A stretch of DNA of 54,266 bases. It comes from a bacterium (GTDB lineage Bacteria; Patescibacteriota; Minisyncoccia; Phycocordibacterales; UBA2100). Location of the stretch: NCBI GenBank assembly GCA_030674455.1, contig JAUSGQ010000017.1, positions 1 through 54,266 of the forward strand, given 5' to 3'. The notes below the pieces were generated by a model. That model saw nothing but the letters and a program-made list of their open reading frames with translations. It was not told the DNA's origin and searched no databases. The number at the start of each line of letters is the position of its first letter. The stretch's first letter is position 1. Of this stretch, positions 27,370-34,734 are shown in pieces. The position numbers and the translations under genes were made by a program.

Positions 27370-27855
27370 TCAAATCTCACTTACCATTTTTTTGGCCGCG
27401 TCCTCATTAATCTTAGCTTGATACATTGTTCCCGCCTTTTCAAACGCCTCAAAAAGCGATTTAACGGGAAACTGCTTCAGAAATTCATTCGCTGCAAAAT
27501 CTTTCATCTGTATCCACTGGGCATCCTTCTTATTTCTCTCCCTCTTCTCAATATTAGGACCACGGTCTGTAAATAATATTTTTACATCATTGTCTATGGT
27601 TGCCATTCTGCATTCATTACCCTGAAACGAAATTGAGATTATCCTATTTAGATTCTCGGGAGTTATAGGTATTTTCCTACCAATTGCCTCTCTTCTAAAG
27701 TTCTCGAGTCCTGCATCATTTATTTCCGCACCTGTGGCTTCCGCCAGGGGATTTTCACCTGACACGCCCCTCAGACGCCTGTATCGGTCTTTCAATCCTC
27801 TATTTTTTTCTTCATCTTCCGGCGAAAGATGCGACTTGAGTTCTTCAGAAGCCAT
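27370..27855 (-). CDS. Hypothetical protein
   Basis: 161-aa ORF, no family recognised. Confidence 0.5.
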   Translation of the reverse strand: MASEELKSHLSPEDEEKNRGLKDRYRRLRGVSGENPLAEATGAEINDAGLENFRREAIGRKIPITPENLNRIISISFQGNECRMATIDNDVKILFTDRGPNIEKRERNKKDAQWIQMKDFAANEFLKQFPVKSLFEAFEKAGTMYQAKINEDAAKKMVSEI

Positions 27856-27930
27856 AGGATTAAATTGTTACGGATATGTGCCAAGAATAGCCCCCCCCCG
27901 CATCCTGTCAACGCAGCTAAGTGGATAACA

Positions 27931-27955
27931 AAATTGGACACCCGATGTCCAATTT
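27931..27955. repeat. REP-like palindrome upstream of RAYT
   Basis: AAATTGGACA-cccga-TGTCCAATTT. Confidence 0.9.
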
Positions 27956-27995
27956 CAGTTGGGGTCACTTATTTATCGAGCTTATCCACAGTTCC

Positions 27996-28020
27996 AAATT
28001 GGACACGCCGTGTCCAATTT
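27996..28020. repeat. REP-like palindrome immediately upstream of RAYT
   Basis: AAATTGGACACGCCGTGTCCAATTT. Confidence 0.9.
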
Positions 28021-28035
28021 GATATCGTTTGGTCT

Positions 28036-28683
28036 ATGGAACTGTTTCATCTTCTTAACCGCGGAGTAGAAAAACGAGTGGTTTTTCTTGACGATCATGA
28101 CCGCGCGCGATTTGTCCATGACCTATTCGCATTTAACAGCGAGTCTTTGTCCCTCAATTTTGAACAACCGGAGCGGCAACTGGAACAACGGCGTAGCCAC
28201 GGTCGCCTCGTTGATATCCATGCTTTTTGCTTGATGGGTAATCATTATCACCTGCTTGTATCAGAGTTGGTCGAGCGGGGCATATCGGTCTTTATGCAAA
28301 AACTCAACATGGGCTACGCAAAATATTTTAATGAACGGTACAAGAGAACGGGTGTTTTATGGCAGGGAACATTCAAGAAAATCCATGTGACGAACGATGC
28401 ACACTTCTTATATATTCCGTACTACATCCATCTCAACCCGCTCGATTTCACGATGCCGGAGTGGCGCGATGGAAAAGTCAAAGACGCGGCGCGAGCACTG
28501 GAACTTCTGCATGCGTACCGATGGAGTAGCCATCTGGATTACTTGGGCGAGAAGAATTTCCCGTCGATAATACGGAAAGATTTCCTATCCGACAATCTCG
28601 GAACGCGGAACGACTACGAAAAAGAAATCGCGAACATCATCTGCGACCCATCGCTGGCTGGCCAAAGCTCTCTTATAGAGTAA
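28036..28683 (+). mobile_element. IS200-like Y1 transposase, REP-associated (RAYT) type
   Basis: MELFHLLNRGVEKRVVFLDDHDRARFVHDL...IHAFCLMGNHYHLLVSE (HUH)...FMQKLNMGYAKYFNERYKRTGVLWQGTFK...YIPYYIHLNPL. ORF track opens at 27829 but ATG at 28036 is the natural start. Confidence 0.92.
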
Positions 28684-31114: not shown

Positions 31115-31201
31115 GGAGAGGTGGCAGAGCGGTCGAATGCAGCATCCTGCTAAGATGCTGACCGGGAAACTGGTCCGAGGGTTCGAATCCCTCCCTCTCC
31201 G
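31115..31201 (+). tRNA. tRNA-Ser (GCT)
   Basis: GGAGAGG...gcatc-ctGCTaa-gatgc...long variable arm...GGTTCGAATCC...CCTCTCC-G. Confidence 0.95.
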
Positions 31202-31384
31202 CATAACAAAAAACACGCCCGAGAGGGCGATGTTTTTTATGCGGAGAGGAGAAATGTGCCTGCGCACATTTCGTGAGGGATTCGAAGACCGCAGCGATGT
31301 TTGGCCAGTAGGCCAAACCGCGAGGGGCGGCCTGCGACCGAGCGCGCGTCGGCGCGGCGAGAGTTGTAGGCGATTCCCTCCCTC
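31202..31384 (+). other. tRNA-Ser-associated element, copy 1 (terminator-like hairpin + ~144-nt structured conserved block)
   Basis: aaaaaacacGCCCgagaGGGCgatgtttttt then GCGGAGAGGAGAAATGTGCctgcGCACATTTC...TTTGGCCagtaGGCCAAACCGCGAGGGGCGGCC...GGCGATTCCCTCCCTC; close match to 34463-34611. Confidence 0.85.
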
Positions 31385-31420
31385 AAGACGGCAAGAAAAA
31401 TATTCCTGACCGAATCCCTT

Positions 31421-31624
31421 TTACCTCTTACATTCCAAAATATCACCGGGCTGGCACTCCAGTGCTTTGCAAATCGCCCCTAAGGTCGAGAGCCGGATTG
31501 CTTTTGCCTTTCCATTCTTCAATATAGAAATATTTGCCATCGTAATCCCGACTTTTTCGGCGAGCTCGGTGACGCTCATTTTTCTTTTTGCCAACATGAC
31601 GTCGATGTTAATGATGATTGCCAT
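31421..31624 (-). CDS. XRE-family HTH regulator
   Basis: MLAKRKMSVTELAEKVGITMANISILKNGKAKAIRLSTLGAICKALECQPGDIL. Confidence 0.9.
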   Translation of the reverse strand: MAIIINIDVMLAKRKMSVTELAEKVGITMANISILKNGKAKAIRLSTLGAICKALECQPGDILECKR

Positions 31625-31655
31625 GATATTTTATTTATAGTGAGCGTAGTCGAAT

Positions 31656-32174
31656 CTATACCGTTAAGTCGTTCTCGGATTTTATATCCACGGCATTTTG
31701 CAAAATCCGTTCAAACATTGCCGCCGCAGTGGCGACTACGATCGAACCGAAGGTGATGAAGACGCCCATAGCAATCCCGCCTGCCGCATCATCGCTACCA
31801 TGATTCAATATGATGAAAATTTCTTCTACCACAACAAAACCAATGATGGTTAGTGCGCAATATTTTATAATCCGCAGAGCTTTTACTGCCGCTTGCGAAA
31901 ATATCTTATTTTGTCCGGCATATCGGAGCACCTTGAACGCCTGATAGAGTGCTACGAAAAAAGGAATAGACCCTAGGTAGACAAGCGCCAGGAATGGATC
32001 CCAGTAAATACTAAACAGGTCTAAGTTTGCGGCTCTACCCTCGGTCAGAGGGAACCGAATCAAAAGAGCAAGAACGCCGATGCCTAGAGCCACAATGACA
32101 ACCTGAAGAAATATGGTTGAGCTTCTTTTTCCGCCGGAGGCGGATCCGCCTTTGGCGGACATATTCAAATTCAT
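31656..32174 (-). CDS. DUF2975-like membrane protein
   Basis: Four TM segments; adjacent XRE partner is the usual arrangement for this family. Confidence 0.75.
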   Translation of the reverse strand: MNLNMSAKGGSASGGKRSSTIFLQVVIVALGIGVLALLIRFPLTEGRAANLDLFSIYWDPFLALVYLGSIPFFVALYQAFKVLRYAGQNKIFSQAAVKALRIIKYCALTIIGFVVVEEIFIILNHGSDDAAGGIAMGVFITFGSIVVATAAAMFERILQNAVDIKSENDLTV

Positions 32175-32333
32175 GATTTCATCGTAATTTACCGCTTATC
32201 GTTAGTCAATACATATTTATCGTTATTTGCACGCGTTGTAAGGTACGGCCCATAAGACCGTCTAATAAATCAGTGTCCGGCAGTTTATTCGGGTACTGTA
32301 ATTTATTAATTTAATTTTAGTTTTTAAAAAAAC

Positions 32334-33413
32334 ATGAACATACGCACATTCGGCGCTTCGGCGCTTACTCTCGTGTTCGCGCTGGGCTTTGGGGTTGCGA
32401 GCGCCAGCGCTTTATCAGTTTCCTGCTCGGGAACCCCTGCAATTTCCAGCATAACGTGGGTGGCCACCACCACGGACGGCGTCGCTCCCATCGCGCTCTT
32501 GTGGGGCAACGGCAGCACCTCAACCTCACAGACGATTCTCTATTCGCCGGGAACATACGCAATGACAATACAAGCGACTGACGCTTCGTCTACAGTTGCC
32601 ACGAGCACCTGCTCGGCAGTCGTGCAGGCGCCTCCGACAATTACTTCGTTCACAGCGTCACCTGTATCTATCACGAGCGGACAAAGCTCGATTCTCACGT
32701 GGTCTGTGAGCAACGCAAGTTCCACAAGCATTAATAACGGCGTCGGTGTTGTGTCCGGCACATCAACCGTTGTTTCTCCGACTGTTACAACGACATACAC
32801 ACTCTCGGCATTGAGTCCGGCGGGTACCACAACGGCCTCGGCTACAGTGACAGTGAACGCGACCAGCACAGGCGGCTCTTCCACACTTGCGCAACAGATA
32901 CAGGCATTGTTGCAGCAGATACGTGCGCTCCAACAGCAAATAGCCCAACTCATCGCGAACCAATTCGGCTTTGGGACCACGACACCGCCGATTATTCCGC
33001 CCGGCCAGTTCGGTAAGGCAGTTTGCATCTCGCTATCCCGCAATATCGGTGTCGGAGATTCCGGTGACGACGTGAAGAAAATCCAGGAGCTGCTGACAGA
33101 AAACGGATTCGCTACGCCGGCCACCGGATACTTCGGGCCTATGACAGCTCGTTCCATGAAGCACTTCCAGGAACGTAGCGGTATTGCATCATCAACTGCG
33201 TCCAATGGATACGTCGGGCCGCTGACGCGCGGATTCTTTGAGCGCGCATGCGGTAAGGGACTTTCCAAGCACTCAGAAAGCTCCGAGGCCGAATCATCGG
33301 AAGATAAGCGAGAAAATTCGACTTCCAATATACGTTCGGGCAAATCCGACAAAGCCAACACCGGAAACGGAAATAATGGCAAACGTTCCAACGGTTCCCG
33401 CGACGACGACTAA
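32334..33413 (+). CDS. Secreted protein with Ig-like and peptidoglycan-binding domains
   Basis: Signal peptide; NIGVGDSGDDVKKIQELLTENGFATPATGYFGPMTARSMKHFQERSGI. Confidence 0.85.
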   Translation: MNIRTFGASALTLVFALGFGVASASALSVSCSGTPAISSITWVATTTDGVAPIALLWGNGSTSTSQTILYSPGTYAMTIQATDASSTVATSTCSAVVQAPPTITSFTASPVSITSGQSSILTWSVSNASSTSINNGVGVVSGTSTVVSPTVTTTYTLSALSPAGTTTASATVTVNATSTGGSSTLAQQIQALLQQIRALQQQIAQLIANQFGFGTTTPPIIPPGQFGKAVCISLSRNIGVGDSGDDVKKIQELLTENGFATPATGYFGPMTARSMKHFQERSGIASSTASNGYVGPLTRGFFERACGKGLSKHSESSEAESSEDKRENSTSNIRSGKSDKANTGNGNNGKRSNGSRDDD

Positions 33414-33443
33414 CGTAGCGCGCCAACCCGATTAACGTTCACG

Positions 33444-33470
33444 CGCCCTCTTAACAGAGGGCGCGTGTGT
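33444..33470. terminator. Hairpin ACGCGCCCTCT-taac-AGAGGGCGCGT
   Basis: Strong hairpin shortly after the stop of 32334-33413; no long T tract. Confidence 0.5.
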
Positions 33471-33570
33471 TAAGAGTGAACCCGAGCAAACAGCATTTGT
33501 AAGTTACTGCTCCCTAACCCGTCTTAGTACTTAAGGTCAGAATTATCAGTCTTAAAATACATCAAATTAT

Positions 33571-34338
33571 ATGAACCGAATCAGCATCACATTCAGTTCC
33601 TTCGCAATCGCTGCTCTCATGGCAGTTGCACCTTTAGTTGCTTTTGCGGACACAGACGCTTCTAAGGGCGTCGTTATCAGCGCGAGCGGGAACGTCAATG
33701 TAGTCGGTGCAAGCGTAACGGCGGTCTCCAGCACTTCAATAAGTGCCGCAACGGCACTGGGCTCGACAACTATTAATTGGACGGTTAACACTTCCCCATC
33801 GACAAAGATTGAGGCGAACGGAGTAATAAGCACATCCACGAGCGGCATCGTAATCGGCGACAAAATTAACTTCTCGGGTACGCTGTCGAGCTTCGGCTCA
33901 ACAATCACGGTCGCCGCATCTCGAATCCGCGACACGTCTTCTTACCCGAACCTCAACGGCGCGGCAGGGAAAATAACGAGCATCAATGCAACCAGCAGTT
34001 CATTCGTGCTCTCGATAGGCCGGCACAACGTGACGGTGCAGACGAACGCATCAACGGCGATTACTGTGAACGGCGTTTCAACTTCCACGTTCGCGTCGCT
34101 GCAAGTCGGCCAGCAAGTGAAGGTGACGGGAACCTTGAACTCGGGCGGAACGGTCATCATCGCCTCTAATGTCCTCGCGATAACGAGTGGCAATAGCACA
34201 AGAATTGAGGCCAGAGAAAAAGCCGAACAGAAGCGAGAGAAAGCAAAGGAACTTCGAGAGGAGGCAAAACAAGAGCGAGAAACGAAGAATTCTGCAAACT
34301 TCTTTCTCAATCTCTTCTCCAAGCTACGCGTCAATTAA
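33571..34338 (+). CDS. DUF5666-like secreted protein
   Basis: Signal peptide; GKITSINATSSSFVLSIGRHNVTVQTNASTAITVNG...LQVGQQVKVTGTLNSGGTVIIASNV. Confidence 0.75.
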   Translation: MNRISITFSSFAIAALMAVAPLVAFADTDASKGVVISASGNVNVVGASVTAVSSTSISAATALGSTTINWTVNTSPSTKIEANGVISTSTSGIVIGDKINFSGTLSSFGSTITVAASRIRDTSSYPNLNGAAGKITSINATSSSFVLSIGRHNVTVQTNASTAITVNGVSTSTFASLQVGQQVKVTGTLNSGGTVIIASNVLAITSGNSTRIEAREKAEQKREKAKELREEAKQERETKNSANFFLNLFSKLRVN

Positions 34339-34462
34339 GACAACTTAAAACGGATAACCTCCAGCGCCCCGTCTACAGGCGATTGAGTACAATCGGATGC
34401 CAAACCCATCGGTCCTCTCGGGGCGCTGTAGGGTTTTGAATATCGCGCTTAGATAATTACTT

Positions 34463-34611
34463 GCGGACGGGGAGAGATTCGCCTACAACTCTCGCCGCGC
34501 CGTCGCTCGGCTCGGTCGCAGGCCGCCCCTCGCGGTTTGGCCTGCTGGTCAAACATCGCTGCGGTCTTCGAATCCTCACGAAATATGCGTAGGCACATTT
34601 CTCCCCTCCGC
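34463..34611 (-). other. tRNA-Ser-associated element, copy 2
   Basis: Minus strand GCGGAGGGGAGAAATGTGCCTACGCATATTTCGTGAGGATTCGAAGACCGCAGCGATGTTTGACCAGCAGGCCAAACCGCGAGGGGCGGCCTGCGACCGAGC...GGCGAATCTCTCCCCGTCCGC; hairpin tagCGCCgataGGCGcatatttt lies between it and the tRNA. Confidence 0.85.
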
Positions 34612-34649
34612 AAACAAAATATGCGCCTATCGGCGCTATTCTGTAGTTG

Positions 34650-34734
34650 CGGAGGGGGAGAGATTCGAACTCTCGGTGCCTTTCGGCACGGTGGTTTTCG
34701 AAACCACTGCACTAGACCTCTATGCGACCCCTCC
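34650..34734 (-). tRNA. tRNA-Ser (CGA)
   Basis: GGAGGGG...gtggt-ttCGAaa-accac...GAGTTCGAATCTC...CCCCTCC-G. Confidence 0.95.

Follow-up and report, generated by a model that had tools for sequence, protein, structure and literature searches.

A family of gene-free elements with target-matched arms at the 3' ends of tRNA and protein genes in two bacterial phyla

The window analysed here is a stretch of 54,266 nucleotides (positions 1 to 54,266 of contig JAUSGQ010000017.1, assembly GCA_030674455.1) from a bacterium of the Patescibacteriota. In this window two serine tRNA genes located with ARAGORN, tRNA-Ser(GCT) at 31115-31202 on the plus strand and tRNA-Ser(CGA) at 34649-34734 on the minus strand, are each followed by a copy of the same element of about 180 bases without genes. 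The copy behind tRNA-Ser(GCT) has a length of 183 bp and is 89% identical to the copy behind tRNA-Ser(CGA), with an E-value of 1.4e-55 that excludes a chance likeness. The original prediction, made from the letters of the window, had proposed one architecture behind both genes, and every part that it described was found in place. Read in gene sense, the order of the parts is A1-A2 (the tRNA end), a hairpin T, A2', a hairpin H, A1', two core hairpins G1 and G2, and a direct copy of the tRNA end.

In copy 1, on the plus strand, A1 (31182-31193) corresponds to the T-loop and the 3' strand of the T-stem (tRNA positions 54-65) and A2 (31194-31202) to the acceptor 3' strand, the latter being read, by comparison with the carried and displaced ends at topA described below, as a putative replacement gene end carried by the element. 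The left junction would lie between C56 and G57 of the tRNA, at 31184/31185, since displaced copies of this form (form I, below) start mostly at position 56/57. The terminator-like hairpin T (31203-31238) separates A2 from A2' (31239-31249), ATGCGGAGAGG, a perfect inverted copy of the acceptor end. H (31251-31272) is a perfect hairpin, GAAATGTGC-CTGC-GCACATTTC, followed by A1' (31275-31286), GAGGGATTCGAA, whose 12 nt are complementary to the T-loop and T-stem across the putative left junction and whose pairing profile makes it a candidate left guide. G1 (31287-31329, GACC..GCAGCGATG..CCGCGAG) and G2 (31330-31371), which base-pairs with the right end (GCCTGC/GTAGGC), are together covered by a match to the covariance model R1 (31287-31371, E=7e-16). 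The right junction is placed between C31371 and G31372, and a partial direct copy of the tRNA 3' end, GATTCCCTCCCTC, probably the displaced end, occupies 31372-31384.

Copy 2, on the minus strand, has A1 at 34658-34669, A2 at 34649-34657, T at 34614-34648, A2' (TTGCGGAGGGG) at 34603-34613, H at 34580-34601, A1' (GAGGATTCGAA) at 34567-34577, G1 at 34524-34566, G2 with the right end at 34481-34523 (R1 match 34481-34566, E=2e-16) and the distal direct copy (GAATCTCTCCCCGTCCGC, one mismatch) at 34463-34480. Its A2' fits its own tRNA and not that of copy 1, and the terminal duplications are in the same way specific to their own tRNA, both as predicted. Also confirmed were the hairpins of both copies: H of copy 2, GAAATGTGC-CTAC-GCATATTTC, differs from that of copy 1 by a change that preserves a G-U pair, and the stem TTTGGCC/GGCCAAA is intact in copy 1 and broken once in copy 2. 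The part overlooked was A1', which in both copies is complementary to the T-loop and the 3' strand of the T-stem. A2' before H and A1' after it therefore together repeat the complete tRNA 3' end (positions 54-73) in inverted form, with H dividing this inverted copy at the boundary of T-stem and acceptor. The tRNA-Glu and tRNA-Val genes of the window lack the element, as had been noticed, and the genome-wide R1 search gives only these two matches on the contig. An open reading frame about 2.4 kb upstream of copy 1 (27763-28683, plus strand) encodes a RAYT-type Y1 (HUH) transposase domain with the motif NHYHLL; the genome has 16 Y1 genes in all.

We investigated whether the core hairpins are a real structure in an alignment and the model R1, both built from 34 cores. 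In the combined G1 and G2 structure 86% of cells pair compared to 66.5% after shuffling, and changes on both sides of a pair occur in 226 cells compared to 71. The covariation score is 0.495 against 0.177 for shuffled alignments (0/500), and slid versions of the structure reach 0.148 or less. The G1-G2 core is thus a real structure with strong compensatory change. Compensatory changes between copies also link the segment before G2 (GGTC in most copies) to its pairing partner, the right end (GACC), and the right-end pairs co-vary (columns 46-49/90-93). Wobble pairs favour the gene-sense strand, with a G-T to A-C ratio of 66:32. The loop of H is CTGC in 57 of 124 H hairpins; a kissing interaction of this loop with G1 (AGYA) was dropped, the two window copies changing in opposite directions. 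GNA triloops in T, considered as proof of DNA folding, were not enriched in a count.

An initial DNA search was positive in 28 of 60 relatives, where almost every match lay behind tmRNA or a tRNA other than tRNA-Ser, and a pattern scan of named genomes added copies across Patescibacteria and in Elusimicrobia. With R1, copies were found at 15 places in the window's own genome at E<=1 (14 at E<=0.001), in 50 of the 60 relatives with 0 to 28 copies each within one genus, and, under strict scoring, in 25 of 287 genomes sampled across the phylum. Genomes of Elusimicrobiota and of other phyla were searched through their loci: all eight Elusimicrobiota genomes had copies, which, these genomes having been picked for carrying the pattern, indicates multiple copies and not prevalence, and 18 genomes of other phyla had no R1 copy. 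No R1 copy was found in a 99% complete relative (G002), and in IMG/VR the pattern scan gave 19 contigs with chance pattern matches only, among which a profile scan found no core copy. Many copies are old and partial. No published description was found in the open-access literature, and one may exist elsewhere; the family, present in two bacterial phyla, is apparently undescribed so far.

Several loci depart from the simple plan. A second, unrelated core (GGTRTACYG and a hairpin with a TGTAA loop) occurs in the same A-T-A2'-H-A1' ... A frame at L006, L008, L019, L026, L098 and L269, sometimes adjoining the first core, so the family seems modular. At L045 and other pairs in that Elusimicrobia genome, units of about 190-210 bp stand in tandem, the final one stopping after H, which suggests repeated insertion or unequal recombination.

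As for the targets, 150 of 198 distinct copies lie on the same strand as a tRNA or tmRNA gene (21 kinds in all) that ends no more than 300 nt before the copy starts, and the remaining ones include copies in the 3' ends of topA (topoisomerase I) and the ribosomal protein genes rpsR and rpsI; the loci chosen by the model in distant relatives again adjoin tRNAs. Two forms are distinguished. In form I, that of the window, the core lies 50-93 nt behind the tRNA with the junction in the T-loop, and in form II it lies 42-47 nt behind, a single palindrome extending 5 nt into the tRNA with the junction at its last bases. The left junction, as placed from these comparisons, would mostly be C/G or C/A (C56/G57 in tRNAs, AC/G in topA). 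At one locus (L003) a small open reading frame separates tRNA-Ser(GCT) from an element fitting tRNA-Ser, which follows at a distance of about 840 nt. The proposed tie to tRNA-Ser did not hold, with copies behind nearly all tRNA kinds, tmRNA and the three protein genes. It had been stated that occurrence equally often away from tRNA-Ser would make the link coincidental, and this is what was found for the serine-specific claim, the element itself being unaffected.

The strong compensatory changes, the G-U bias of the sense strand and the fixed orientation behind genes would also suit a structured RNA acting on the host gene in tRNA 3' processing, as a decoy or in readthrough control, with A' pairing to the pre-tRNA. 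Such ncRNA and decoy functions had been offered in the original prediction and are unsupported, because the same architecture stands at protein genes, near-complete relatives have no copy and the cores are not linked to tRNA identity. The A' pairing would moreover unfold the tRNA, and the Rfam search that had been proposed gave no family match over the elements even at relaxed thresholds, with only tRNA/tmRNA and chance-level or antisense-tRNA matches. An RNA of this kind is in our opinion very improbable. In the window, the strand opposite to the tRNAs gave two sub-threshold Rfam matches (31150-31201 and 34650-34699) to the plastid psbL-rps4 3'UTR family, which most likely reflect antisense tRNA-Ser sequence inside that family.

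We found also that the arms mirror the target of each copy. The upstream inverted and the downstream direct copy fit their own tRNA far better than other tRNA kinds, and two opposite controls were flat. In 61 form I loci the identity of A1' with positions 60-65 is 0.795 for the own tRNA and 0.532 for other tRNAs (0/5000 permutations), and the distal copy matches the own tRNA at >=13 of 16 positions in 41 of these loci, compared to 0.8% for other tRNAs. A1' follows T-loop variants (TTCAA with TTGAA, TCCGA with TCGGA) and pairs with the TTC left of the junction in 57-58 of 59 loci, and also with the bases to its right. Near-identical cores are found at different targets, the arms of each fitting its own. 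A2-T-A2' forms a continuous palindrome, and where the two direct copies disagree the inverted copy agrees with the proximal one (48 vs 3). The last two observations would be expected if the inverted and direct copies had a local origin, in template switching at hairpins and in terminator slippage, with only the core hairpins spreading like REP sequences. A chimeric copy (L211, G000:C63) points the same way, its A1' and displaced end fitting a Leu-like tRNA end, with no tRNA upstream, and its first palindrome fitting the new flank. We regard such an origin without mobility of the whole unit as improbable, because the differences between the topA ends described next fall mainly at third codon positions, which a local duplication followed by decay would not give.

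At topA, the copies carry the last ~20 codons and the stop, and at several loci a displaced second topA end (P-KTIPERCSNK..HNPHK) stands in frame directly after the right end of the core. A protein search with the topA end found the second fragment in a minority of relatives, and the single ends of most relatives would be empty sites. Carried and displaced ends at three loci differ by codon position as 10/5/29 (p = 1e-5). This predominance of third-position differences argues that both ends were coding before being joined, and therefore that the carried one probably came from another lineage. A small comparison, over 57 nt, with the closest relative that has an empty topA site (G033) points in the same direction: its native end differs from the displaced end at 13/57 positions and from the carried end at 18/57. 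The rpsR and rpsI loci share the topA plan, and a restored gene with a displaced gene end at the far border was seen at topA, rpsR and tRNA loci. As judged from these sequences, the carried and displaced ends indicate what would be a horizontally moving integrative element. Vertical inheritance together with the tRNA was rejected, the nearest core relative being at the same tRNA kind in 8 cases compared to 7.3 by chance; it was in the same genome in 10 cases compared to 3.7, a modest excess (11 being the maximum among 300 shuffles). Cores with up to 94% identity occupy different targets. In the topA of the window's own genome (L394, G000:C63 at about 54250-54860) a second C-terminal fragment lies upstream of the core, as if two elements had entered one site successively.

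Taken together, we favour, with a probability of roughly 60%, a family of non-autonomous, gene-free integrative mobile elements of about 130-250 bp that insert in the 3' ends of conserved genes and bring a replacement end. The structured core, the spread to many targets with target-matched arms, the carried and displaced ends and the presence in two phyla are supported by the data. Of the three options in the original prediction, the best fit is the mobile element that attaches at tRNA 3' ends, only its restriction to tRNA-Ser having been too narrow. A copy would enter a conserved gene at its 3' end, in the T-loop or acceptor end of a tRNA or in tmRNA, topA, rpsR or rpsI, and supply its own replacement for the remainder of the gene, often with a terminator, the original gene end staying behind the right border. 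Transfer may occur as folded single-stranded DNA of the gene-sense strand directed by guides: A1', abutting the foot of G1, would pair across the left junction and set the left end, and the segment 5' of G2 (usually GGTC), paired with the right end (usually GACC), would be the second guide, both ends being cut by an enzyme supplied in trans, like the guides of IS200/IS605 ends. On entering a new gene the guide might be reset by selection of matching sites or by template-switch correction of the long imperfect palindrome.

Several observations weigh against this interpretation. In A1' of about 12 of 59 loci the TC next to the junction is replaced by GA, which would not be predicted by plain copying, and A2' is intact (at least 7/8) in only 23 of 61 form I loci. 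No insertion was caught between near-identical strains, because the relatives are diverged, and none of the copies had a gene between G1 and G2. Among the 60 relatives, none of the Y1_Tnp, RVT_1 and Phage_integrase counts follows the element copy number. Y1_Tnp is missing from three carriers with 10-19 copies (G004, G020, G045), and the Y1 transposase is weakly associated with element presence (40/50 vs 4/10, p=0.017), which, the 60 genomes being related, is not independent evidence either way. At 20 Y1 loci checked, no Y1 gene lay between element hairpins and no element core in the flanks.

The enzyme could instead be a site-specific recombinase, the A1/A1' stem folding single-stranded DNA of a mini integrative element into a duplex attachment site for a host Xer-type tyrosine recombinase, comparable to integron attC or CTX phage attP. 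A displaced copy that starts in the T-loop and restored gene 3' ends are typical of tRNA-integrating elements, and both are seen here; a tyrosine recombinase was found in 57 of the 60 relatives. However, the arms differ wholly between targets, whereas a tyrosine recombinase depends on constant arm sequences or on attC landmarks; a carrier of 6 copies (G007) has no integrase match, and the integrase count does not track the copies. We judge this recombinase mechanism unlikely, though less so than local origin or an RNA function.

More tentatively, and with the odds somewhat against it, the favoured mobile family may be a natural DNA-guided system, in which a gene-free element acquires a guide complementary to each gene end that it enters and so hops among essential genes without breaking them. 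If true, this would be a widespread gene-free mobile DNA that base-pairs to essential genes and repairs their interruption in two phyla, including the largely uncultured Patescibacteria. It would bear on how mobile DNA is gained and kept in reduced genomes, account for the duplicated ends of topA and tRNA genes, and show in nature the guide resetting that had previously been engineered only in IS608. The question of which enzyme mobilises gene-free elements where a genome has no matching transposase would also become testable.

Among known systems, the element matches no ncRNA family of Rfam. With integron cassettes it would share a recombination site read by structure, not sequence, as folded single-stranded DNA, but no attC boxes were recognised by eye (visual comparison only) and it enters genes, not a platform. 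Integrative elements and genomic islands at tRNA, tmRNA and other gene 3' ends likewise cross over in the T-loop or at the end of the gene, restore the gene that they interrupt, leave a displaced fragment at the far border and insert repeatedly at one site. They differ by their own integrase and fixed attachment site, whereas the present element, of about 200 bp, has no integrase or other gene, arms that differ by target, dozens of targets per family and an inverted target copy inside it. REP/REPIN sequences are likewise short non-coding palindromes that contain a mismatch and have a GGAG-like tetranucleotide (GTAG/GGAG type) ahead of the hairpin; TnpA-REP cleaves at CT or CA (PMC8266576), and genes for RAYT-like Y1 proteins are frequent in the genomes studied here. 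REPs, however, are high-copy sequences of 20-40 bp with neither target-derived arms nor gene-end replacement, in contrast to a composite of 130-250 bp with target-derived arms and 0-28 copies per genome. The IS200/IS605 family, with its non-autonomous derivatives, depends on a Y1 HUH transposase and is further characterised by a single-stranded circular intermediate and cutting by 5'-phosphotyrosine. IS608 carries a subterminal hairpin at either end, each with a guide immediately 5' of its foot that recognises the cleavage site, and its left target remains in the flank (PMC5934647). The element resembles IS608 in these points, with candidate guides in A1' across the putative left junction and in the right-end stem with its compensatory changes. 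It differs in lacking a transposase gene, with no Y1 transposase gene tracking it across genomes, and in having a long guide that fits the 3' ends of genes, a replacement gene end that it carries and the extra hairpin H. In IS200/IS605 the target can be changed by changing the guide, and an extended pairing of 12-17 nt has been engineered (PMC5934647); A1' would be the natural counterpart of this extended pairing.

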